Below, piece by piece: positions 23,381 through 32,210 of a DNA stretch of 32,210 nt (its first letter is position 1; every line of letters begins with the position of its first letter). The stretch comes from a virus. Both the position numbers and the translations under genes were made by a program. The notes under the pieces were generated by a model. It saw only the letters and a program-made list of their open reading frames with translations, was not told where the DNA came from and searched no databases. The stretch lies in IMG/VR virus record IMGVR_UViG_3300010297_000040, positions 1-32,210 of that record. One strand, given 5' to 3'.

Positions 23381-24106
23381 ATGGCAAAACGTAGATACAC
23401 CGGATACGACAAAACCGCAAAGCGTAAGCGGGCAGGTTTAGAGAAACTTGTTGACCTTCTTGAAGCCGAGTTCGGTTTGTGGAACAACGGTACTTACGGT
23501 GTTCGAGCGAAGCGTGGCAAGTCGTCCTCCAATTTAAGTGTTCATTCGACGGGCCGCGCCAGTGACATTTCTTGGCGTGGCGCACCGTACAAGGGTTCAG
23601 GTAAGTATGAGGATGCTTGCCGCATGATGGACTTCCTCGTAGAGAACGCCGATGTGTTGGAGATTGAAGCGGTGTTTGATTATTACCCGAAGCCACATGG
23701 CCGTGGCTGGATGTGTGACCGTGACGCATGGAGAGTGTACGACCGGAAGGCGTTCTCTGGTTCACCTGGCGGTGATTGGGTGCATATCGAAATTTCAAAT
23801 AAGTATGCCGATGACCCTGACTATTACGAGCAGAAGATGGCTGAACTGTTGGGAGGCAAGAAGCCTGCCCGCAAACCAGCCGCAAAGAAAGCTGCTGCTC
23901 CTGCGTATCCTGGCAAGTCGTTGCGTAAAGGCTCAAAGGGTGACGACGTGAAACTGGTACAGGAAAAAGTCGGTGCCTATGTTGATGGCGACTTCGGTAC
24001 CAAAACAGAGAAGTCTGTGAAAGCATGGCAGGCTGACAACACCGCATGTTGCGGTCCAAGTGACGGGATCGTTGGTCCTAAAACTTGGGGTTGCATGTTT
24101 GGCTGA
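23381..24106 (+). CDS. Endolysin: M15-type peptidase plus peptidoglycan-binding domain
   Basis: This 241-residue cell-wall hydrolase has two domains. Residues ~15-150 carry a VanY/M15-type zinc site: H55 and D62 in SVHSTGRASDI and H135 in DWVHIE. It probably cuts peptide cross-links. An Ala/Lys/Pro linker (residues 158-178) joins a C-terminal PG_binding_1-like repeat (KGDDVKLVQEKVG, DGDFGTKTEKSVKAWQ, DGIVGPKTWG). There is no signal peptide, so export would depend on the small membrane proteins just downstream. It opens the lysis cassette. Confidence 0.85.
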   Translation: MAKRRYTGYDKTAKRKRAGLEKLVDLLEAEFGLWNNGTYGVRAKRGKSSSNLSVHSTGRASDISWRGAPYKGSGKYEDACRMMDFLVENADVLEIEAVFDYYPKPHGRGWMCDRDAWRVYDRKAFSGSPGGDWVHIEISNKYADDPDYYEQKMAELLGGKKPARKPAAKKAAAPAYPGKSLRKGSKGDDVKLVQEKVGAYVDGDFGTKTEKSVKAWQADNTACCGPSDGIVGPKTWGCMFG

Positions 24107-24108
24107 CG

Positions 24109-25245
24109 GTGCGCCGTGGCCTTCTTACTTGCAGCCAGCTTGCTCTGGCTTCATTGTTTGTCGTCGCTGTGTTTGCTCCGTTGTCTGCGTTTGCGGACTC
24201 GGTGACAATCACTGAAGAAACCGACATCTTTTTCACTGTTGACGAGCAAAGCCTCGTCGTGATTTACGGCAACAGCAATCAGCCCTGTGAGTCTGCGACT
24301 GTTGACCCGTATCTGTGGCTGTATGACGGCAAAGACACGCTGATCGCATACGACGACGACGGCAACTTCAACGATCAAGACCAGTGTGTGTCAGCGAAAC
24401 TGTATGTGACGTTGGACGCTGGTGATTACCGTCTGCGGGCAGGCTATTACCCTGAGCAGTTGGGGCTTGGAAATACCCCTGAGTGGGGTGACGGAACGTA
24501 CGAGCTGTTGTCTGAGATAAACTTGTCTACAACTACTACATCTAGTACAACTACAACAACGACAAGCACGACAACCACTACATCTAGTACGACGACAACG
24601 ACATGGCCTTCTACCACGACAACCACCACCTCGGTTCCTGCACCGGCACCGACAACTGTCCCTTCCTCTACGACGACAACCACCGACGCAACCACCACCA
24701 CTACGATCCCAACGACTACTACATCGCCGTCAACCACCACGATCCCAACGACCACTACTACGTCAAGTACAACAACGACGACGATCCCGCCGACTACTAC
24801 GTTGTCACCGACGACAACATCATCATCGACAACAACGGTCGCGCCTACCTCGACGACTTCAACTATCCCGCCGACTACAAGTACGACAAGCACAACAGTC
24901 GCAGCAACCACAACTTCGACGACCACGACGACAACAGTTGCGCCCACGACGACTTCTTCGCCATCTACGACTACATCAAGCACGACGACGGCTGTATCCA
25001 CCACTACACAGCCCACCACGACTGTCCCCACAACAGTTGCAAGCCCGCCACCGCCACCAAATGACGCACCCGTGGCAGAGAAACAAGTTTTCGAGGAACA
25101 AGTAAATATCTATTCCACCCCCGGATATGATGACTATGTGCCTGCTGGTTCAACCGTTGATGTCGCTACCCGCCGCACAGTGACCGCCGCATCTGTCATA
25201 ATAGGAAGTGTCCCGACCGTGATGTCCCGCAGGAGACTCAAATGA
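24109..25245 (+). CDS. Exported protein: PPC-like domain plus long Thr-rich stalk
   Basis: The protein has 378 residues from the GTG at 24109; an in-frame ATG at 24085 lies inside the endolysin gene and would hide the signal peptide. Residues 1-29 are a textbook signal peptide (Arg-Arg start, hydrophobic core, cleavage after AFA). Residues ~30-135 resemble a bacterial pre-peptidase C-terminal (PPC) jelly-roll: PYLWLYDGKDTLIAYDDDGN, then LYVTLDAGDYRLRAGYY. Residues ~140-310 are an almost pure Thr/Ser tract with occasional Pro, Val and Ile. The last ~65 residues end in a mildly hydrophobic segment and SRRRLK. It is probably exported or surface-attached. Its role, perhaps envelope disruption or cell-surface binding, is unknown. 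Confidence 0.65.
   Translation: MRRGLLTCSQLALASLFVVAVFAPLSAFADSVTITEETDIFFTVDEQSLVVIYGNSNQPCESATVDPYLWLYDGKDTLIAYDDDGNFNDQDQCVSAKLYVTLDAGDYRLRAGYYPEQLGLGNTPEWGDGTYELLSEINLSTTTTSSTTTTTTSTTTTTSSTTTTTWPSTTTTTTSVPAPAPTTVPSSTTTTTDATTTTTIPTTTTSPSTTTIPTTTTTSSTTTTTIPPTTTLSPTTTSSSTTTVAPTSTTSTIPPTTSTTSTTVAATTTSTTTTTTVAPTTTSSPSTTTSSTTTAVSTTTQPTTTVPTTVASPPPPPNDAPVAEKQVFEEQVNIYSTPGYDDYVPAGSTVDVATRRTVTAASVIIGSVPTVMSRRRLK
24526..25050 (+). repeat. ACN-rich microsatellite-like tract
   Basis: About 520 bases made mostly of A and C with interspersed T/G. They encode a Thr/Ser run in the exported protein. Codons vary freely among ACA, ACC, ACG and ACT, so selection appears to act on protein composition, not on a DNA repeat. 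Such tracts can change length by slippage or recombination. Confidence 0.7.
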
Positions 25246-25403
25246 AACATCTGAGAACCCTGTTAGAAGCTCTCATAATGGCTGGAGGTCTGCTGCTGGT
25301 GATCATCACGTTGTCGGGGCAAACAAGAGACATCGCAATCGGCATATCTATTGCTTCCGTGATATTCTTTGTACTGTCAGAACTCGTACCTCCAGAGGAT
25401 TAA
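25242..25403 (+). CDS. 53-aa membrane protein, holin candidate 1
   Basis: The protein has 53 residues and starts in an ATGA overlap with the exported protein. Two hydrophobic segments, about residues 8-24 and 31-48, are separated by a short SGQTRD turn, and the tail is acidic (PPED). That hairpin topology and the place in the lysis cassette suit a small holin or antiholin. It lies three genes downstream of no other transmembrane candidate, so no family name is given. Confidence 0.6.
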   Translation: MKHLRTLLEALIMAGGLLLVIITLSGQTRDIAIGISIASVIFFVLSELVPPED

Positions 25404-25405
25404 AC

Positions 25406-25621
25406 ATGACCGCAGTAGTAGTAAAGCGACTTGTCGCAACGTTCGTAGCAGCCGGTGTACCTAACGTGTTGGCTGGAGCCATTGTTGATGTGGCTGTTTG
25501 GAAGTCCGCTGTGATGGCTGGTGCTATCGCCGCTCTTGGTGCGGTGCAGACGTTAGCTGCCGCTTACAAAGCGGATGGCGAGTTGACCGACGAAGATGTC
25601 GAGTCAGCGTTCAAAGGCTGA
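25406..25621 (+). CDS. 71-aa membrane protein, holin candidate 2
   Basis: Two Ala/Val-rich transmembrane segments (about residues 8-28 and 33-52) precede a soluble tail, YKADGELTDEDVESAFKG. The tail of the D-G-x-L-T-x-x-[DE]-[IV] type ending in AF is typical of r1t-like holins of actinophages. It would perforate the membrane to release the endolysin. The ATG follows the previous stop by two bases. Confidence 0.65.
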   Translation: MTAVVVKRLVATFVAAGVPNVLAGAIVDVAVWKSAVMAGAIAALGAVQTLAAAYKADGELTDEDVESAFKG

Positions 25622-25627
25622 TCTTCT

Positions 25628-25825
25628 GTGCCAACGTGGGCAGTAATCGTGTTGGCGGTTCTCGCCCCCGGTGGCGTTCTCACCGTTCTCATTGAGCGTA
25701 TGCGCCGTGAAAACAACCGTGACCACAACCGTAACAGCGAGTTGTTGCAACAGATTGATGGCAAGGTTGACAAGATCGATAATCGTTTAGATTCTCACAT
25801 GGATTGGCACGCGCATCACGACTGA
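25628..25825 (+). CDS. 65-aa single-TM protein of the lysis cassette
   Basis: GTG start at 25628. A single N-terminal membrane span (residues ~4-22, VIVLAVLAPGGVLTVLI) is followed by a charged segment and an amphipathic helix (LLQQIDGKVDKIDNRLD) ending HMDWHAHHD. Similar short proteins with an LDxHxxWH end occur in actinophage lysis regions. It may be a holin partner or antiholin. A spanin role is less likely, because Gram-positive hosts lack an outer membrane. Confidence 0.55.
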   Translation: MPTWAVIVLAVLAPGGVLTVLIERMRRENNRDHNRNSELLQQIDGKVDKIDNRLDSHMDWHAHHD

Positions 25826-25832
25826 CTTGGTG

Positions 25833-25838
25833 TACAAT
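25833..25838 (+). promoter_or_regulatory. Near-leaderless promoter (-10 TACAAT)
   Basis: The same TACAAT hexamer as at 18943 sits 10 bases before an ATG that has no Shine-Dalgarno sequence. The predicted transcript would have a 5' leader of only a few bases. This marks the switch from the lysis cassette to the next unit. Confidence 0.4.
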
Positions 25839-25848
25839 CTCTAGTCCC

Positions 25849-26010
25849 ATGTCGCTAGATTCTCACACCATCCTTGACATCCGCTGGTTTCTTAGTAGAG
25901 TTGTTCCTCGTGGACCAGATGAAGCTTCTCGTTTGGTTCACCTGATGAGTCAACTCAACCAGGAGGAAACCAATGGGATTAGCGGACGACATAAGGAACG
26001 CACCAACTAG
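25849..26010 (+). CDS. 53-aa protein of unknown function
   Basis: Starting at the ATG at 25849, the protein is 53 residues and helical (SLDSHTILDIRWFLSRVV, then DEASRLVHLMSQLNQEE). Longer in-frame starts lie in the preceding gene and upstream of the -10 box. Its 3' end overlaps the next gene by 38 bases, and the AGGAGG ribosome site for that gene lies inside it. I do not recognise a family. Confidence 0.45.
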   Translation: MSLDSHTILDIRWFLSRVVPRGPDEASRLVHLMSQLNQEETNGISGRHKERTN

Positions 26011-26239
26011 CACTAACCTTTGTTGCGTTACTAGAGCAAGAAAACATTTCGAGGGCGAAGACCTAAAAATGTTGAACGAAGTAATTGAGATAATTGCGAA
26101 ACGGCCAGCGGGTCAAAGGTATGGCGATGGGCCTTCTCAGGTTTGGCTTGCTAATACGTTGACCAACAACGGGTTTAAGGTTAGTCCTAAAACTTTAAGC
26201 ACCCATTTTCGTGGGGAGTGTGCTTGTGGCTCTGTCTAA
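25973..26239 (+). CDS. Small HTH-like protein with C-terminal CxC
   Basis: The protein has 88 residues with a strong AGGAGG site 7 bases upstream. It has a C-C-V-T-R-A-R segment, a helical middle (DLKMLNEVIEIIAKRP), a probable helix-turn-helix (VWLANTLTNNGFKVSPKTLS) and an end of HFRGECACG. I recognise this pattern from small proteins placed before metallophosphoesterase genes in actinophages. DNA binding, perhaps as a regulator or small-terminase-like protein, is possible. It overlaps the next gene by 14 bases. Confidence 0.55.
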   Translation: MGLADDIRNAPTSTNLCCVTRARKHFEGEDLKMLNEVIEIIAKRPAGQRYGDGPSQVWLANTLTNNGFKVSPKTLSTHFRGECACGSV

Positions 26240-27380
26240 AGATTTGCAAGAGGGTCCACCTCCCGCCAAGAAAGAAGTGTTGGGCAAGATCGCGACGCTT
26301 CTTGACCGTAACGGGATTGATGTTGACGAGGTGGGTCGCATTACCCGTGTGTCGTTGTACCAGTCGTTGACAAAAAACGATGAGGGCGAAGCAGAAATCC
26401 ATGACCTTGTTGGTGTGCAGTTGTCACCGTCTTGGGAGGATGGTCCACAGTGGGACCCTGTGTCGCAGGCTGCGCCTGTCAAATGCTCTGTAAAGCCCGT
26501 CAAAGGGCTACAGAAGCCCGAAGGATGGCGGACTGCTGTCATTGTGCCTGACGCACAGATCGGCTATTACAGGGACGCTGACGGCGGGCTGGTTCCCACG
26601 CACGATGAGGACGCAATCAGTTTGTGTCTGTCAGCTATCCGGGATTTGAACCCTGAGGTGGTGGTGTGTGTCGGTGACATGCTTGACGCACCCGAGTTCG
26701 GTAAGTACCGGCTGTCACCTGCGTTCGCTCTCACCACGCAAGCATCTATTGACCGTGCCACAACGTTCGCTGCCGAGTTGCGAGCCTGCGCGCCTGACGC
26801 AGAAATAATTTGGATTGCAGGAAACCACGAAGAAAGGATCACCAATGCGGCACTTGACAACCTCAAAGCAGCGTTCGGTCTTAAACGAGGTAACGATAGG
26901 AAGGGTCTTCCTGTTCTTAGCGTTCCTTTTTTATGCAGGTTTGACGACGCTGACATTAGTTATCTGGCTGGTTATCCGGCATCCTCTTATTGGATCAACC
27001 AGCGCATCAAAGTTATTCACGGGAACAAAGTCCGATCTAACGGTTCGACGGCACACGCCTACTTCAACGGTGACTCAAAGTCCTCGGTTCTCTACGGGCA
27101 TATCCACCGCAGAGAATGGGCAGAAAAAACGAGGCAAGATTGGGATGGGGCCAAAACGATACTTGCGGCATCGCCTGGAACCCTTGCCCGCACGGACGGA
27201 GCTGTCCCTTCGACGCGCGGCGGGCTTGATCTCGACGGGCGACCGTTGACTGTTGTTGAGGATTGGCAGCAGGGATACGGTGTTGTGACGTTCCAACCTG
27301 GTGACGGCAATTTCTTTTATGAGCAGGTCGCTATCCATGATGGGCAGGCATGGTTCCGTGGCAAGTTGTACACTGTGTAA
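26226..27380 (+). CDS. Calcineurin-like metallophosphoesterase
   Basis: The protein has 384 residues from the GTG at 26226, which has GGGGAG 7 bases upstream; GTGs at 26211 and 26220 would lack a site. An N-terminal ~60-residue helical part resembles an HTH. The catalytic domain shows the metallophosphoesterase motifs in order: D109 with Q111 (PDAQIG, where the usual His is Gln), G150-D151, G199-NHE, H265 (VIHGN) and G291-HIHR. It hydrolyses a phosphate ester, but the substrate is unknown. Metallophosphoesterases are common in actinophages in this position, with possible roles in DNA repair or processing. Confidence 0.8.
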   Translation: MALSKDLQEGPPPAKKEVLGKIATLLDRNGIDVDEVGRITRVSLYQSLTKNDEGEAEIHDLVGVQLSPSWEDGPQWDPVSQAAPVKCSVKPVKGLQKPEGWRTAVIVPDAQIGYYRDADGGLVPTHDEDAISLCLSAIRDLNPEVVVCVGDMLDAPEFGKYRLSPAFALTTQASIDRATTFAAELRACAPDAEIIWIAGNHEERITNAALDNLKAAFGLKRGNDRKGLPVLSVPFLCRFDDADISYLAGYPASSYWINQRIKVIHGNKVRSNGSTAHAYFNGDSKSSVLYGHIHRREWAEKTRQDWDGAKTILAASPGTLARTDGAVPSTRGGLDLDGRPLTVVEDWQQGYGVVTFQPGDGNFFYEQVAIHDGQAWFRGKLYTV

Positions 27381-27644
27381 ATGGCACCACCAAAGGTAAA
27401 GAACCCCAAAAAGTCTGCGGCTAACTACCGGAAGAACGCCGCATCTCGAGCAAAAAAAGCTGCGTACGACAAGAAGTACCACAGCAGCGACAGTCGGAAA
27501 GAATACCGTGCCGAACTACAAGCGGAACGCCGTAAGCGTGGTGTAGCTGGCAAGGGCGGAAAAGATATGTCGCACACTAAATCAGGAAACATTGTTGCCG
27601 AGAACGCCAGCAAGAACCGTGCGCGCAATCGAGGCAAAAAATAA
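27381..27644 (+). CDS. Conserved basic phage protein
   Basis: The protein has 87 residues, very basic and low in hydrophobics: AANYRKNAASRAKKAAYDKK, RAELQAERRKRGVAGKGGKD and SHTKSGNIVAEN with NRARNRGKK at the end. I recognise this as a small protein recurrent in marine and actinobacterial phages with a GKGGKDxSHTKxG motif. Function unknown; nucleic-acid binding is plausible from charge. The ATG directly follows the metallophosphoesterase stop. Confidence 0.65.
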   Translation: MAPPKVKNPKKSAANYRKNAASRAKKAAYDKKYHSSDSRKEYRAELQAERRKRGVAGKGGKDMSHTKSGNIVAENASKNRARNRGKK

Positions 27645-27751
27645 TGATGCTGACTTGCCGTGATTGCGGCGAGGTGTGGCCTTCGAACTCCGGTCGTCGG
27701 TGCCGTGAATGTGATAGACATGGTGAACCGTACGATGGCGAGGACGAATGA
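27644..27751 (+). CDS. 35-aa zinc-ribbon miniprotein
   Basis: The protein has 35 residues (MMLTCRDCGEVWPSNSGRR, then CREC). Two CxxC pairs spaced 12 residues apart make a standard zinc ribbon, followed by an acidic tail. Start in TAATG and stop in ATGA couple it on both sides. It is the second such miniprotein in the window, after the one at 1449. Possibly an adaptor or transcription-related factor; function unknown. Confidence 0.55.
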   Translation: MMLTCRDCGEVWPSNSGRRCRECDRHGEPYDGEDE

Positions 27752-28059
27752 GCGAAATCTATGAAGATGACGACACATGGCCTTTGGTTGTGTGCCAATG
27801 GAAAGATGCTCATGCTGGCGGGGACAGCAGTTGGACTCATACAGCAACGTACAAACCTGAAGAGGTGCATGTACTAAGTAGCGGCTGGGTGTGGCCGAAA
27901 TGTTTGGAAGGTCACCTCACGCTTGTCAGCTCCACAATCGGTGAACCTAAAGACCCCGAAGTTGTCGGGGACATCATTCATATCCCCTGGGAAAATATTT
28001 TGGCTGTGTTCTCGTTAGCCATGAATGTCCCTGTGAACTGGATGTCCGAAGACTTCTAG
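27748..28059 (+). CDS. Conserved small phage protein of unknown function
   Basis: The protein has 103 residues, starting in an ATGA overlap. It carries LVVCQWKDAHAGGDSSW near the N-terminus and SSGWVWPKCLEGHLTLVSST in the middle, then VGDIIHIPW. This W-x-D-A plus SGW-x-W pattern occurs in many phage early regions without a known role. It is the last gene before the inverted repeat that precedes the recombination module. Confidence 0.6.
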   Translation: MSEIYEDDDTWPLVVCQWKDAHAGGDSSWTHTATYKPEEVHVLSSGWVWPKCLEGHLTLVSSTIGEPKDPEVVGDIIHIPWENILAVFSLAMNVPVNWMSEDF

Positions 28060-28075
28060 TTGCAAACTGTCACAC

Positions 28076-28112
28076 CCTTCGTGTAAAACTAATGCAGTCC
28101 GCTACACGAAGG
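28076..28112 (+). promoter_or_regulatory. Inverted repeat overlapping exonuclease ribosome binding site
   Basis: CCTTCGTGT (28076-28084) and ACACGAAGG (28104-28112) are perfect 9-base reverse complements with a 19-base spacer. The right arm contains most of the ribosome binding site GAAGGA (28108-28113) of the gene starting at 28120. In RNA it would hide the site; in DNA it could be an operator. A weak promoter-like pair TTGCAA (28060) and TAAAAC (28084) lies across the left arm. Confidence 0.55.
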
Positions 28113-28119
28113 AAAACAA

Positions 28120-29085
28120 ATGCGACGAACAACAATACCGAAACCAGAACACGGCTCAATCGAATGGTTACGGCTACGGCAACGTGACGAAACCGGATAC
28201 CCAGTGGTGTCAGCAAGCGAAGCAGCAGCTGTTCACTCAGAACACCGTTTCAAAACCAAATGGGCGTTAGCAGCAGACAAAATTGCTAACGAACCAGAAA
28301 TCACTGAAACCAACAGGGCGATGGAACGAGGCAACCGTCTTGAACCAGTCATCTTGCAATGGGTGTCAGACGAAATAGGTGAACCAATTATCACGCCAGA
28401 TGTCATGCACGCTGTCACCAGCGGAGGCGCATCACTCATCGCAACACTCGACGGCATAGTAGGTGATCAAGAAAACCCTGATCGTGTCGTAGAAATCAAA
28501 ACCTACAGCCGTCAATGGGACGAGAACGCCGACATTGACGGGTACGGACCGCTACCTGCCTACTGGTTTTGGCAAGGGGTACACCAAGCTGCATGTGCAG
28601 GTGTTGACGAAATCCTGTGGGGCATCTTTGACAGCACCCTCGATCTGCATCTCTACACACAGAAGATGGACAACAGCATCATCGGTAAACACGTCGTTCG
28701 TGTCTCAGATTTCTGTCGTCATGTCGCAACAGGCAACATTCCGCACGAATGGGAACACACCTACGACGACGTAGCAAAAAGTTCCCGTATCAACGAAGAC
28801 GTTGCAAACCTTGACGACCACCAGCAGCTACTCGTCCAACTCTTAACAGTGCAAGCAGAAAAGAAAGAACTTGCCGCCGCAGAAGACGAACTCAAAGCAG
28901 AACTCGCTTTGCTGCTAGATGGCTCAACAGTAGGAACTGTTGGTGGGACCGAGGCTGTCACATGGAAACAACAGTCACGATCAGGATTCGACTCAAAAAG
29001 ATTTGCATCGGAGCACCCGGAGCTATATAGTCAGTACCAGTCGACCAACACATTCCGAGTGTTGCGATTGAAAGGAACCAAATAA
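28120..29085 (+). CDS. YqaJ/lambda-exonuclease-type recombination nuclease
   Basis: The protein has 321 residues. The N-terminal 150 residues fit the YqaJ viral recombinase family: EWLRLRQRDETGYPVVSASE, MERGNRLEP with E75, LIATLDGI with D111 and VEIKTYS with E125 and K127. These are the PD-(D/E)xK catalytic residues of a 5'-to-3' dsDNA exonuclease. A coiled-coil helical region follows at residues ~240-270, with a C-terminal domain typical of phage versions. It acts with the annealing protein encoded directly downstream (TAATG). Confidence 0.85.
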   Translation: MRRTTIPKPEHGSIEWLRLRQRDETGYPVVSASEAAAVHSEHRFKTKWALAADKIANEPEITETNRAMERGNRLEPVILQWVSDEIGEPIITPDVMHAVTSGGASLIATLDGIVGDQENPDRVVEIKTYSRQWDENADIDGYGPLPAYWFWQGVHQAACAGVDEILWGIFDSTLDLHLYTQKMDNSIIGKHVVRVSDFCRHVATGNIPHEWEHTYDDVAKSSRINEDVANLDDHQQLLVQLLTVQAEKKELAAAEDELKAELALLLDGSTVGTVGGTEAVTWKQQSRSGFDSKRFASEHPELYSQYQSTNTFRVLRLKGTK

Positions 29086-29738
29086 TGGATGAACCAAACG
29101 CAGAAAAACTACGTCTTGTCCTAGACAAGTACGCAGTACCTGACCCGAAGATTGTTGGCAAGCTGCCTCGAGGCAACATCCAACTTGACTACGTCGGTCA
29201 CGCCGAGATCACCCGCATCCTCATCGACATTGATCCGTTGTGGGAATGGAAGCCGTTAAAGATTGACGACGACGGTTTGCCTTCTTACCGTGTTGAAAAC
29301 GGCATGGCACACATGGCTGGTGCACTCACGCTGCTCGGCCACACCAGGCTTGCTATCGGTAGCGCACCACACAACAAACAAGACCTGTTGAAAGAACTGG
29401 TGTCCGATTTTTTACGCAACGCAGGCATGAGGTTTGGACTGGCCTTAAGTCTCTGGTCAAAAGAGGAATGGGGCGGCGAATCAGACATTGCGCTAGCACC
29501 AAAGAAAAAAGCACCAGCGAAAAAGCCTGCTGCACCAGCAAAACCTGACAGCGCACCAGTATCTGACAGCGAAAAAGTTGACAAAGACACAGTGTCAAGA
29601 TTCATCGCCGCATGCAAAGGCGCAAACCTTGACCCAATCGAAGTCGCACAACACGCAGAAGTAGCAGACATCGACAACGTAACCATCGCAGACCTCGACC
29701 GTCTGCGTGCCTCATTCAAGGAGCTCATCTCACAATGA
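29085..29738 (+). CDS. Single-strand annealing protein (Erf/Rad52-like)
   Basis: The protein has 217 residues. The core (residues ~30-125) has LDYVGHAEITRILIDIDPLW, MAGALTLLGHTRLAIG and KELVSDFLRNAGMRFGLALS, the pattern of Erf or Sak/Rad52-like annealing proteins in actinophages. An Ala/Pro/Lys linker (residues ~140-165) joins a C-terminal acidic helical domain that may bind SSB or the exonuclease. It promotes single-strand annealing at ends resected by the exonuclease. It overlaps the SSB gene by four bases. Confidence 0.75.
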   Translation: MDEPNAEKLRLVLDKYAVPDPKIVGKLPRGNIQLDYVGHAEITRILIDIDPLWEWKPLKIDDDGLPSYRVENGMAHMAGALTLLGHTRLAIGSAPHNKQDLLKELVSDFLRNAGMRFGLALSLWSKEEWGGESDIALAPKKKAPAKKPAAPAKPDSAPVSDSEKVDKDTVSRFIAACKGANLDPIEVAQHAEVADIDNVTIADLDRLRASFKELISQ

Positions 29739-30118
29739 ACAACATCACAGTAATCGGCAACGTCGGACGCGACCCAGAACTCAAATTCTCACAATCCGGC
29801 ACAGCAATCCTCAAATTCTCCGTAGCTGACACCAGCGGACGCGACGAAAACAAAAAAACCCAATGGTGGAACATCGTCTGCTTCGGTGACCTCGGAGAAA
29901 ACGTTGCAGCAAGCATCAGTAAAGGCACCCGAGTCCAAGTCATGGGTAAAGTGCAACGAGAAAAGTACACAGGCAACGACGGTGTCGAAAAAGAACGCAC
30001 CGAAGTCTTAGCAGATGACGTAGGCATTTCACTCCGCTGGACAACAGCAAACGACGCACCTGTCACCCGTGAAACAGCACCAACGCAACCAGCATTGGAC
30101 GACGAAGAACCCTTCTGA
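29735..30118 (+). CDS. ssb: Single-stranded DNA-binding protein
   Basis: The protein has 127 residues, with an ATGA overlap at the start. An OB-fold core begins NNITVIGNVGRDPELKFSQS and continues with WWNIVCFGDLGENVAASISK and VQVMGKVQREKYTG. A short disordered tail ends in DDEEPF, the usual acidic interaction tip that recruits repair and replication proteins. It fits between the annealing protein and the resolvase-like gene. Confidence 0.9.
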   Translation: MNNITVIGNVGRDPELKFSQSGTAILKFSVADTSGRDENKKTQWWNIVCFGDLGENVAASISKGTRVQVMGKVQREKYTGNDGVEKERTEVLADDVGISLRWTTANDAPVTRETAPTQPALDDEEPF

Positions 30119-30119
30119 C

Positions 30120-30290
30120 ATGGCAAGACCCGTAAAGAAGGTAAACTGGTGGTGCCGCACATGCGGCCAGACGCTCACCACATATCGACCGTTGCTGTCA
30201 GCCCCAATGCACTCGTGCGGGGCAGGCAAGCGACGCAAAACGATGGAGGAAGTAGATGAGCCGCAACAAACAAAAAGGGACAGCATTTGA
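30120..30290 (+). CDS. 56-aa Cys-containing protein
   Basis: From the ATG at 30120, one base after the SSB stop, the protein is 56 residues. It starts with a basic stretch (MARPVKKVNWWCRTCGQTL) that contains a CxxC, with a third Cys in HSCGAGKRRK, so a zinc-ribbon-like site could involve the His. It overlaps the resolvase-like gene by 35 bases and includes that gene's ribosome binding site. Function unknown. Confidence 0.45.
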   Translation: MARPVKKVNWWCRTCGQTLTTYRPLLSAPMHSCGAGKRRKTMEEVDEPQQTKRDSI

Positions 30291-30591
30291 AACGCTGGTC
30301 GTGCGATGGCTTGCCGAACACGGATTCCCGCACGCCGAAAGACGCGCTCTCGCAGGCACCAACGATTTGGGGGATGTCACTGGGATTCCTGGCCTCGTTA
30401 TTGAGTGCAAAAACCACAAAACCTTGTCGTTCTCGGAATGGTTGGAAGAAGCTGAAGTGGAACGTACTAATGCTTCTGCTGATTATGGCATCGTTGTAGC
30501 AAAACGTCGAGGGAAAGGCGACGCAGGCGACCAGTACGCCGTGATGCGACTCGAAGACCTCGCCCGTCTACTTAAAGAAGCCGGATACTGA
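30256..30591 (+). CDS. Holliday-junction-resolvase-like PD-(D/E)xK nuclease
   Basis: The protein has 111 residues, ATG at 30256 with GGAGGAAG upstream. It follows the small archaeal-type/phage resolvase pattern: KGTAFETLVVRWLAEHGFP with E12, RRALAGTNDLGDV with D37 and D40, and LVIECKNHK with E50 and K52. It would cut branched DNA left by recombination or before packaging. Its place after exonuclease, annealing protein and SSB completes a recombination set. Confidence 0.8.
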   Translation: MSRNKQKGTAFETLVVRWLAEHGFPHAERRALAGTNDLGDVTGIPGLVIECKNHKTLSFSEWLEEAEVERTNASADYGIVVAKRRGKGDAGDQYAVMRLEDLARLLKEAGY

Positions 30592-30603
30592 CCGGAGTCC
30601 GCC

Positions 30604-31146
30604 ATGAAAATTATTTCTTGGGTAGTGTTCCTTGTCATATCCATGCTTGGGTACAACGCAACTACTGAAGCCCCAACAGAGGTGACTCCCCCTACCTCCA
30701 CAATCGCTTCAGACCCCCCTAGATTGCGTTCTAAGACGAGCAGCACCACAACAACGACAACGACTGCGGTTTCCACCACCACAACCACCACAGAACCAAT
30801 CCCCGGAATCGAAACAGCACGCTACCCAGACCTGTGGATAACTGCCGTTGAAGCTGGCTGGCCTACCAACCGACTACCAACACTAGACCTCATCGCATAC
30901 CACGAATCACGAGGACAAACAGATGTTGTTGGCACAGGCGCATACGGCGTACTTCAAATCCAATGGTCAGCACACCACGAATGGCTGACAACAGAACTGA
31001 ACATCACCGAACCCGAACAACTATTCGACCCGCTCACCAACATGGTTGCCGCACTCTGGCTAGCCGAATACGCCGAAACAAACTACGGCTGCTGGACACA
31101 ACCCTGGTACATGAGCCTCAACAACCCTTACAAATACTGCAAATGA
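30604..31146 (+). CDS. Exported lysozyme/lytic-transglycosylase-like protein with Thr linker
   Basis: The protein has 180 residues. Residues 1-~17 are hydrophobic (MKIISWVVFLVISMLGYNAT), a signal or anchor sequence. Residues ~46-63 are a Thr/Ser run resembling the stalk of the exported protein at 24109. The C-terminal ~110 residues match a soluble lytic transglycosylase/lysozyme-like fold: DLIAYHESRGQ with E101 as candidate catalytic acid, GAYGVLQIQWS and an NMVAALWLAEYAE helix. C163 and C179 may form a disulphide. It probably degrades host peptidoglycan outside the cell. It lies away from the lysis cassette, which is unusual. Confidence 0.7.
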   Translation: MKIISWVVFLVISMLGYNATTEAPTEVTPPTSTIASDPPRLRSKTSSTTTTTTTAVSTTTTTTEPIPGIETARYPDLWITAVEAGWPTNRLPTLDLIAYHESRGQTDVVGTGAYGVLQIQWSAHHEWLTTELNITEPEQLFDPLTNMVAALWLAEYAETNYGCWTQPWYMSLNNPYKYCK

Positions 31147-31466
31147 AACGAAACAGAGACATAGTCTGGCTACCCCTCTCCCAAATCTTCTTCGACCCAG
31201 ACAAAGAAAAATGGAGAGACAAAGCAGCCTGCAAAAACGCCCCACTCGAAACATTCTTCCCCAAAAAAGGCGCATCAACACAAAGAATCAAAGAAGCAAA
31301 AGCAATCTGCAACACCTGCACAGTCAAACAAGACTGCCTCGAATGGGCAGTCCAATTCTCCGAACGGGCACTCATGGGCATATGGGGCGGAATGACACCC
31401 AACGACAGACGAGCAGAACGCAAACGGCTAGGGTTAAAAGACGATGACACCCGACTGGATGACTGA
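31143..31466 (+). CDS. whiB: WhiB-family transcription regulator 1
   Basis: From the ATG at 31143 (ATGA overlap) the protein is 107 residues. The four cluster Cys residues are C30 (KAAC), C56, C59 and C65 (ICNTCTVKQDCLEW), with GIWGG at 79-83, the WhiB turn. A charged C-terminal tail (ERKRLGLKDD) follows. WhiB proteins bind a [4Fe-4S] cluster, pair with the host sigma factor and steer transcription; phage copies such as that of TM4 repress host whiB genes. It overlaps a second WhiB by 23 bases. Confidence 0.9.
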   Translation: MKRNRDIVWLPLSQIFFDPDKEKWRDKAACKNAPLETFFPKKGASTQRIKEAKAICNTCTVKQDCLEWAVQFSERALMGIWGGMTPNDRRAERKRLGLKDDDTRLDD

Positions 31467-31761
31467 AGCTGCCTGCAAAGGAGCAGACCCCGACTGGTTC
31501 CACCCACCAGACGGCTACCCATCCCTAAAAGAATACGGACTAGCACTCTGCAAACACTGCCCCGTCAAACAAGAATGCCTCGAATACGCACTCTCATTCA
31601 AACTCATCGAAGACCACTACGGCATCTTCGGAGGCACCACACCAATAGAACGACACCGCATACGCACCGGCAGAACACACCAACGCAAACAACCAGGACC
31701 AAAAAAACAAATCATCACCGGACTAGACGACATAGGAGACAACAATGAACCTCACATTTGA
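31444..31761 (+). CDS. whiB: WhiB-family transcription regulator 2
   Basis: The protein has 105 residues from the ATG at 31444. Cluster ligands are C11, C36, C39 and C45 (LCKHCPVKQECLEY), and GIFGG is at 60-64. The N-terminus is shorter than in the upstream copy, and the tail is basic and differs (RTGRTHQRKQPGPKKQ), so the two may contact different partners. It shares the upstream operon and may counter or tune the host WhiB network during infection. Confidence 0.88.
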   Translation: MTPDWMTEAACKGADPDWFHPPDGYPSLKEYGLALCKHCPVKQECLEYALSFKLIEDHYGIFGGTTPIERHRIRTGRTHQRKQPGPKKQIITGLDDIGDNNEPHI

Positions 31762-32029
31762 AGAATGGGCAAAATACGGATGGGAACAAGGCTGGTGCTC
31801 ACCACCAATCTGCCAAACCTGCGACGGCACACCACTCACCTACGAAGAAGAATTCTCATTCGAACAAGGATGGACAGACTGCGTACACATCATCCGCCTC
31901 TACGAATGCGAAGAAGACCGCACAGACGCAACAGAAAACCACGCCCCATCACAATGGCGCGCCAGCAACCGAGGCTGGATTGAACGTGGTAAAGAATTCC
32001 AACCAGCAAACAAACAAAAGCTGGAGTGA
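31745..32029 (+). CDS. Conserved small actinophage protein
   Basis: The protein has 94 residues and overlaps the second WhiB gene by 17 bases. It contains YGWEQGWCSPPICQTCDGTP at the N-terminus, then EEFSFEQGWTDCVHIIRLYE and ENHAPSQWRASNRGW. This GWC-x-PP-x-C order is one I recognise from small proteins of many actinophages. The Cys set (18, 23, 26, 45, 55) could hold a metal. Function unknown. Confidence 0.65.
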   Translation: MNLTFEEWAKYGWEQGWCSPPICQTCDGTPLTYEEEFSFEQGWTDCVHIIRLYECEEDRTDATENHAPSQWRASNRGWIERGKEFQPANKQKLE

Positions 32030-32040
32030 ACTTGCAGTCG

Positions 32041-32109
32041 CCACTATCAATCCACTATCAAGCAACACCCCATTCTGCATAATATGCAACTAGCTCGATA
32101 CATATGCAA
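32041..32109. promoter_or_regulatory. Repeat-rich non-coding control region candidate
   Basis: CCACTATCAA occurs at 32041-32050 and 32052-32061. TGCAT-AAT-ATGCA (32076-32088) is an inverted repeat. ATATGCAA recurs at 32082-32089 and 32102-32109, 20 bases apart, about two helical turns. Such clustered repeats suit protein-binding sites. Confidence 0.35.
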
Positions 32110-32115
32110 AAGCAA

Positions 32116-32143
32116 AAGACCCCCAGCCGGAGCCGAGGGTCTT
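32116..32143. terminator. Terminator hairpin, T-tail on the - strand
   Basis: AAGACCC (32116-32122) pairs with GGGTCTT (32137-32143) around a 14-base loop. On the - strand the hairpin is followed by TTGCTTTTGC, a T-rich tail, so it should stop leftward transcription coming from beyond the window. On the + strand the tail is weak (CTG after TCTT). Confidence 0.55.
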
Positions 32144-32210
32144 CTGCGTGGGGTTTGATACAAGATTTATTCAATACACATGAGTAGCAACACGATGATG
32201 CCCATCCCGA

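Follow-up and report, generated by a model that had tools for sequence, protein, structure and literature searches.

A predicted hairpin over the exonuclease ribosome binding site of a viral recombination module shares its left arm with a conserved promoter-like element

The recombination module and its leader

The window analyzed here is a stretch of virus DNA of 32,210 nucleotides (IMG/VR record IMGVR_UViG_3300010297_000040, positions 1-32,210, one strand, 5' to 3'). Its recombination module begins with an exonuclease gene and continues with genes for a single-strand annealing protein, a single-strand DNA-binding protein (SSB) and a RusA-like resolvase (Table 1). Terminase, portal, capsid, tail-fibre-like and endolysin genes lie upstream of the module on the same strand. 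The gap between the ORF that precedes the exonuclease gene and the exonuclease ATG is 60 nt long and houses an inverted repeat. Pfam and PHROG searches with this upstream ORF returned no match; an ORF with a C-terminus of the PVNW... type precedes the exonuclease in L015, L024, L028, L035, L039, L018, L061 and L070. At 25973-26239, before a phosphoesterase gene, there is a small ORF of 88 aa that is present in several relatives, has no PHROG match at 0.001 and by eye resembles a small DNA-binding protein.

The host is probably actinobacterial, given two WhiB-like genes near 31-31.7 kb, a capsid protein most similar, at about 44%, to those of Streptomyces phages (among the best 8 of 103 records), and an annealing protein for which Mycobacterium phages make up 179 of the 183 matching records. 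The exonuclease had no match when compared with named phages, and among 124 pattern-matching stretches in host genome contigs none encoded a relative.

Table 1. Features of the exonuclease leader and the neighboring genes.
Feature	Position	Strand	Remarks
Upstream ORF, 103 aa	27748..28059	+	stop codon 16 nt 5' of left arm
-35-like box TTGCAA (predicted)	28060..28065	+	TTG box 11-13 nt before ACACC in 41/42 leaders
ACACCC element in promoter spacer	28072..28077	+	ACACC in 42/44 distinct leaders
Left arm of hairpin, CCTTCGTGTA	28076..28085	+	perfect repeat
-10-like box TAAAAC (predicted), 18 nt after -35-like box	28084..28089	+	TA there or one base earlier in 42/42 leaders
Expected transcription start, about 28094-28098	28096	+	taken as seventh base after -10
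Right arm of hairpin, TACACGAAGG	28103..28112	+	perfect repeat
Shine-Dalgarno (SD) core GAAGG within right arm	28108..28112	+	7 nt 5' of ATG 28120
Exonuclease gene, YqaJ-like / RecE-like	28120..29085	+	PF09588 E 1.6e-13; phrog_434 E 3.8e-60
Single-strand annealing protein gene	29085..29738	+	start overlaps exonuclease stop; phrog_3290 E 9e-46
Single-strand DNA-binding protein (SSB) gene	29735..30118	+	PF00436 E 4.8e-25; phrog_44

An ordinary repeat in a rare position

The two arms are complementary at 10 of 10 positions and are separated by 17 nt. An earlier note on this DNA had described a perfect 9-base repeat reaching to 28119; the repeat is present with arms of 10 bp (28076-28085 and 28103-28112), the arm itself ends at 28112, and 28119 is the last base 5' of the ATG. 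The right arm does include the GAAGG of the exonuclease SD, as that note observed, and the folding-energy calculation that it proposed for 28060-28130 yields -17.5 kcal/mol (z -3.60), a value reached in 0 of 200 shuffles. A search of the window against Rfam at the gathering score gave 0 matches.

The repeat had also been called unlikely to be accidental, which holds for its placement on the SD and not for its length. By length alone it is ordinary for 32 kb, because the window contains one perfect inverted repeat of at least 10 bp (loops of 3-60 nt), where 30 shuffles give a mean of 1.3 (sd 0.97), and four of at least 9 bp, where 6.5 are expected. Placement on a given SD is rare: when the sequence from GAAGG onward was fixed and the bases upstream were shuffled, 200,000 trials produced an arm of at least 10 on the SD 31 times, and one of at least 9 there 154 times. 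Multiplied by the 31 starts examined, a crude choice of genes that omits the ORF at 82, these odds correspond to about 0.5% and 2.4% over the whole window. Among those 31 starts, the exonuclease start is alone in having its SD inside a perfect arm longer than 6.

The repeat was rejected as an operator scattered over the window: ACACGAAGG, with at most one mismatch, occurs 7 times against 9.3 expected, and TACACGAAGGA, with at most two mismatches, 10 times against 7.95 expected. A scan of 24000-32210 for terminators found none at the hairpin; the same region has 23 terminator-like sites, compared with 9.7 in shuffles, and these fall mainly on the minus strand, the genes being on the plus strand.

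A promoter-like element conserved among related leaders

For comparison we took the best 80 of 245 relatives, with more distant ones represented only by a further set of loci. Three loci that begin inside the gene and hence have no leader (L019, L031 and L050) were dropped, and the 77 remaining, together with L021 and the window, provided 79 leaders, 44 of which are distinct over their last 60 nt. We define a close group of 24 distinct leaders, which have ACACC and an exonuclease with 58% or more identity to that of the window, and a distant group of 18 leaders with ACACC and an exonuclease identity of 46-51%. A separate pattern search gave 11 stretches, from which L089, on a contig outside the relatives' set, was left out; a scan of viral contigs for the promoter pattern, the matches of which we estimate to be mostly chance, was likewise left out of the counts.

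The motif ACACC lies 42-51 nt 5' of the start codon in 42 of the 44 distinct leaders (as ACACCC in 39 and ACACCG in 3) and is absent from two. Twelve nucleotides after its first base there is a TA-hexamer in all 42 leaders (11 nt in eight leaders with TAATAC), and the spacing from ACACCC to the -10-like box is a fixed 6 nt. The distance from the TTG box to the TA-hexamer is 17, 18 or 19 nt in 17, 23 and 1 leaders, respectively; L083 has no TTG box at the expected place. The distant relatives carry TTGACT with TAAAGT, TAAGGT or TAGGGT, and the promoter-like element is present also in this group, which is without the hairpin. With both strands searched, ACACC-N7-TAnnn[TC] has one occurrence in the window, and the leader pattern, when sought before other genes, was found before none. 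A consensus promoter scan of 24000-32210 did not list the window element, because TTGCAA and TAAAAC are weak matches. We read the element as a putative promoter of the housekeeping type with an added ACACCC.

Several members of this promoter family have perfect dyads of other kinds near the -10 box (CTCCTGT-N7-ACAGGAG, CACCCT-N6-AGGGTG, CACACC-N10-GGTGTG and GGGTGTCACACCC), carried by L256-L259, L262 and L263, by L063, L067 and L066, and by L224, with the presumed SD outside the dyads. L260 has the box TTGACA, and ACAGGT where ACACCC is expected.

Predicted accessibility of the ribosome binding site in two transcripts

The left arm of the hairpin overlaps the promoter-like element and precedes the expected transcription start, and the SD is accordingly predicted to be more paired in a read-through RNA than in an RNA that begins at this promoter. 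The 5-base SD core of the window is calculated to be open at 0.20 in the read-through RNA and 0.94 in the promoter RNA. In the close leaders at 37 C the mean rises from 0.11 (median 0.03) to 0.45 (median 0.42), and the promoter RNA is predicted to be the more open of the two in 24 of 24. The distant leaders show 0.47 in read-through versus 0.49 in promoter RNA, with the promoter RNA more open in 10 of 18. Calculations at 20 C, or with the start placed 5 or 9 nt after the -10 box, give a similar picture. The bases with which the SD pairs lie upstream of the expected start in all 24 close leaders; in L032, where the hairpin is not significant (z +0.33), the partner is a different one farther upstream. 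For L010 the SD is barely more open in the promoter RNA (0.19 vs 0.16), and the group to which it belongs stays rather closed.

The contrast between the two groups extends to the fold itself. From ACACC to the start codon, z is -2 or lower in 16 of 24 close leaders and in 0 of 18 distant ones, and closure of the SD falls in the lowest 5% (SD part kept, upstream part shuffled) in 12 of 24 and 0 of 18. A set of 131 other starts in the same loci, with start codons picked mechanically and therefore crude, served as a control: a perfect arm of at least 7 on the SD occurs at none of them and in 9 of 24 exonuclease leaders, and an SD open probability of 0.2 or less at 12 of 131 and in 18 of 24.

Some relatives have no such arrangement. 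L027 (69% identity) and L049 (68%) lack both the promoter-like element and the hairpin, as does L255, whose leader is the same as that of L027. L224 (65%) keeps the promoter-like element and has its SD open at 0.61. The exonucleases of L027, L049 and L255 are 58-69% identical, the first two to that of the window and the third to that of L035.

Hairpin arms that differ between relatives and still fit each other

Where the hairpin occurs, its sequence has changed. The inner helix is GTGTA/TACAC in the window, GTAGA/TCTAC in L010, GTAGC/GCTAC in L035 and TTAGG/CCTAA in L018; the outer helix is CCTTC/GAAGG or, in L035, CCTCCTGT/ACAGGAGG, and in L035 six bases, AATACT, that overlap the -10 box are looped out. 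The earlier note held that a change in one arm without compensation, in homologs still well expressed, would speak against the fold. Part of this is seen in L005, L007 and L025, where a G of the right arm (at the place of 28108) has become A and its partner is unchanged; these leaders have also gained G bases that lengthen the outer helix.

These forms bear on the alternative that the note had offered, namely operator half-sites in place of an RNA fold. On this reading a repressor bound to the dyad, at about -20 to +17 with its center near -2, would shut off transcription. Such an operator would suit a dyad that spans the predicted promoter, matching arms are expected of it as well, and other dyads near the -10 box are found in the promoter family (L063, L067, L066, L256, L224). 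The spacing of the arms is not constant, however, as would be expected of a dimer's binding site, the distance from the start of one inner arm to the start of the other being 22 in the window, 15 in L010, 11 in L035 and 12 in L018; their place relative to the -10 box shifts, bulges and internal loops occur, and nowhere else in the window is there a half-site without mismatch. We therefore favor an RNA structure and rate an operator unlikely here, with the reservation that dyads lying off the SD in the distant groups keep it alive for the family as a whole.

Arm-swap tests were used because the arms of different groups do not line up in MAFFT alignments; RNAalifold predicted 0 pairs on the alignments A3 (21 of 24 close leaders) and A4 (14). 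In the swap test the right arms were permuted among nine cluster representatives (clusters at 75%), and the fit of the leaders' own arms was matched or beaten by 4 of 362,880 permutations, the true one included. The inner part alone was equaled in 754 and the SD part alone in 3,984 of 362,880. Six broad types gave 2 of 720 arrangements as good, and random rearrangement after inclusion of L224 gave 18 of 400,000. Six representatives of the distant group gave 485 of 720, with 95 of 720 for the inner part and 710 of 720 for the SD part. In the controls, the left arm was paired with nt 1-24 of the gene (102,857 of 362,880 as good) or with codons 9-16 (53,697), two upstream windows were paired with the right arm (45,981 and 132,422), and the left arm was reversed (70,080); overall the five control windows gave no signal, with 13-37% of permutations as good. 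Shared ancestry may inflate the test, as permutations do not fully remove relatedness; the control windows share the same relatedness as the arms, yet they show no signal.

A second alternative is that the fold is an unselected by-product, in which the pyrimidines of the promoter (ACACCCYT) happen to complement a purine-rich SD. About one perfect 10-bp repeat is to be expected in a window of this size, the pyrimidines do belong to a conserved promoter element, and L032, L224, L027 and L049 are without a clear hairpin. On the other hand, the distant leaders hold the same ACACCC and SD-like purines and yet remain unpaired, own arms outdo swapped arms as the controls do not, and the inner arms, which lie outside the anti-SD and SD, give a signal by themselves. 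We regard chance as slightly less likely than an operator. The note's view that a fold would hide the SD of this module is supported in silico by a strong fold, by SD pairing in related leaders and by the better pairing of own arms.

A model for a two-transcript lock

The features found by computation are the repeat, its fold, a conserved promoter-like element, the mutual fit of the arms across relatives and a left arm that lies before the expected start. We consider that a translation lock operating through two transcripts of the recombination module is the best explanation for them, and a fairly probable one. The 0 pairs from RNAalifold, the non-significant hairpin of L032 and the relatives without the lock (L027, L049, L224) weigh against it. 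In this model, read-through RNA from the upstream terminase, capsid, tail and lysis genes would carry both arms and fold, hiding the exonuclease SD and turning translation off. The start of the annealing-protein gene overlaps the stop of the exonuclease gene, and this second gene may fall silent as well. The local promoter (TTGCAA, 18 nt, TAAAAC) would start an RNA near 28096, between the arms, and this RNA, having no left arm, would leave the SD open. Synthesis of the recombination proteins would then depend on firing of the local promoter, and late read-through RNA would yield none. The activity of the promoter, its start site, read-through, the block to ribosomes and the timing are what we infer in this scheme. 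The earlier note, in proposing that the folded transcript blocks translation, had overlooked that the left arm sits inside the promoter-like element, which would confine the fold to read-through RNA.

It is quite improbable that the fold instead tunes messages of the local promoter that start farther upstream, as a translational damper, thermosensor or protein site: the start position is deduced from the -10 box, and the calculated fold is stable at both 20 and 37 C, but a start upstream of 28076 requires another promoter where just 16 nt of intergenic DNA precede the arm, and the conserved promoter-like element places the start after the left arm.

The two-transcript lock can be carried further, in a reading that we hold only tentatively and think rather doubtful. 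In it, a family of uncultured and probably actinobacterial phages would use the same DNA in two ways. One use would be as a promoter of a new type, marked by ACACCC at a fixed distance from the -10 box and answering to a novel regulator; the other would be as the left half of an RNA lock that blocks the production of recombination proteins from late read-through. Around an unchanging promoter, the lock would repeatedly have been rewritten in different letters, and some lineages would be without it.

Comparison with known systems

The closest layout we compared is that of phage T4. In the published account (PMC3014915), the SD of gene e is hidden by structure in long early transcripts, late transcripts that start just upstream of the ribosome site are without the 5' part and are translated, and the late promoter lies in the 5' strand of the hairpin in e, soc, 49 and I-TevI. 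The window resembles gene e in having the SD in the 3' arm and, where the DNA encodes the 5' arm, a promoter-like element, in a long RNA that is closed and a short one that is open (for the window by calculation), and in a structure that some relatives seem to keep and others are without. It differs in that its promoter would be of the host housekeeping type, whereas that of T4 is a late promoter, and in that it would lock a recombination module placed after structural genes; the silent read-through is early in T4 and, judging by gene order, would be late in the window. The likeness described here is one of layout. Pairing of the SD in the long RNA and a promoter-like element in the 5' strand are both predicted for the window, and as to conservation with changed sequence, the arm swaps (4 of 362,880, with clean controls) stand beside the 0 pairs from RNAalifold and the absence of the lock from L027, L049 and L224. 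A literature search found no report of such a lock in this phage group, which is no proof of absence.

We also compared the element with the PafBC-dependent promoters of mycobacteria, which respond to DNA damage and are given as tTGTCRgtg - 8 nt - TannnT (PMC5656591), with a -26 motif bound by PafB according to a second source (PMC11804915). The window has TGTCA (28068-28072) spaced from the TA of its -10 box as in that motif, and DNA-metabolism genes downstream. A PafBC promoter was nonetheless rejected: in TGTCACAC - 8 nt - TAAAAC (28068-28089), TGTCA and TA fit, and the rest and the final T do not. The last three letters of the motif differ in the window, a -35-like box is present, and relatives vary TGTCA (TGTTA, TGTGA, TGTAA, TGCCA) but keep ACACC.

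If the lock exists as proposed, the device known from T4, a promoter inside an SD-hiding hairpin, would have arisen independently in phages of very different hosts. It would here serve recombination rather than lysis genes, insulating a module that lies downstream of late genes. Related lineages in which the promoter has been kept and the hairpin rewritten or lost would offer a case for asking how two readings of one DNA evolve together, and ACACCC would take its name as a promoter element without a known partner.
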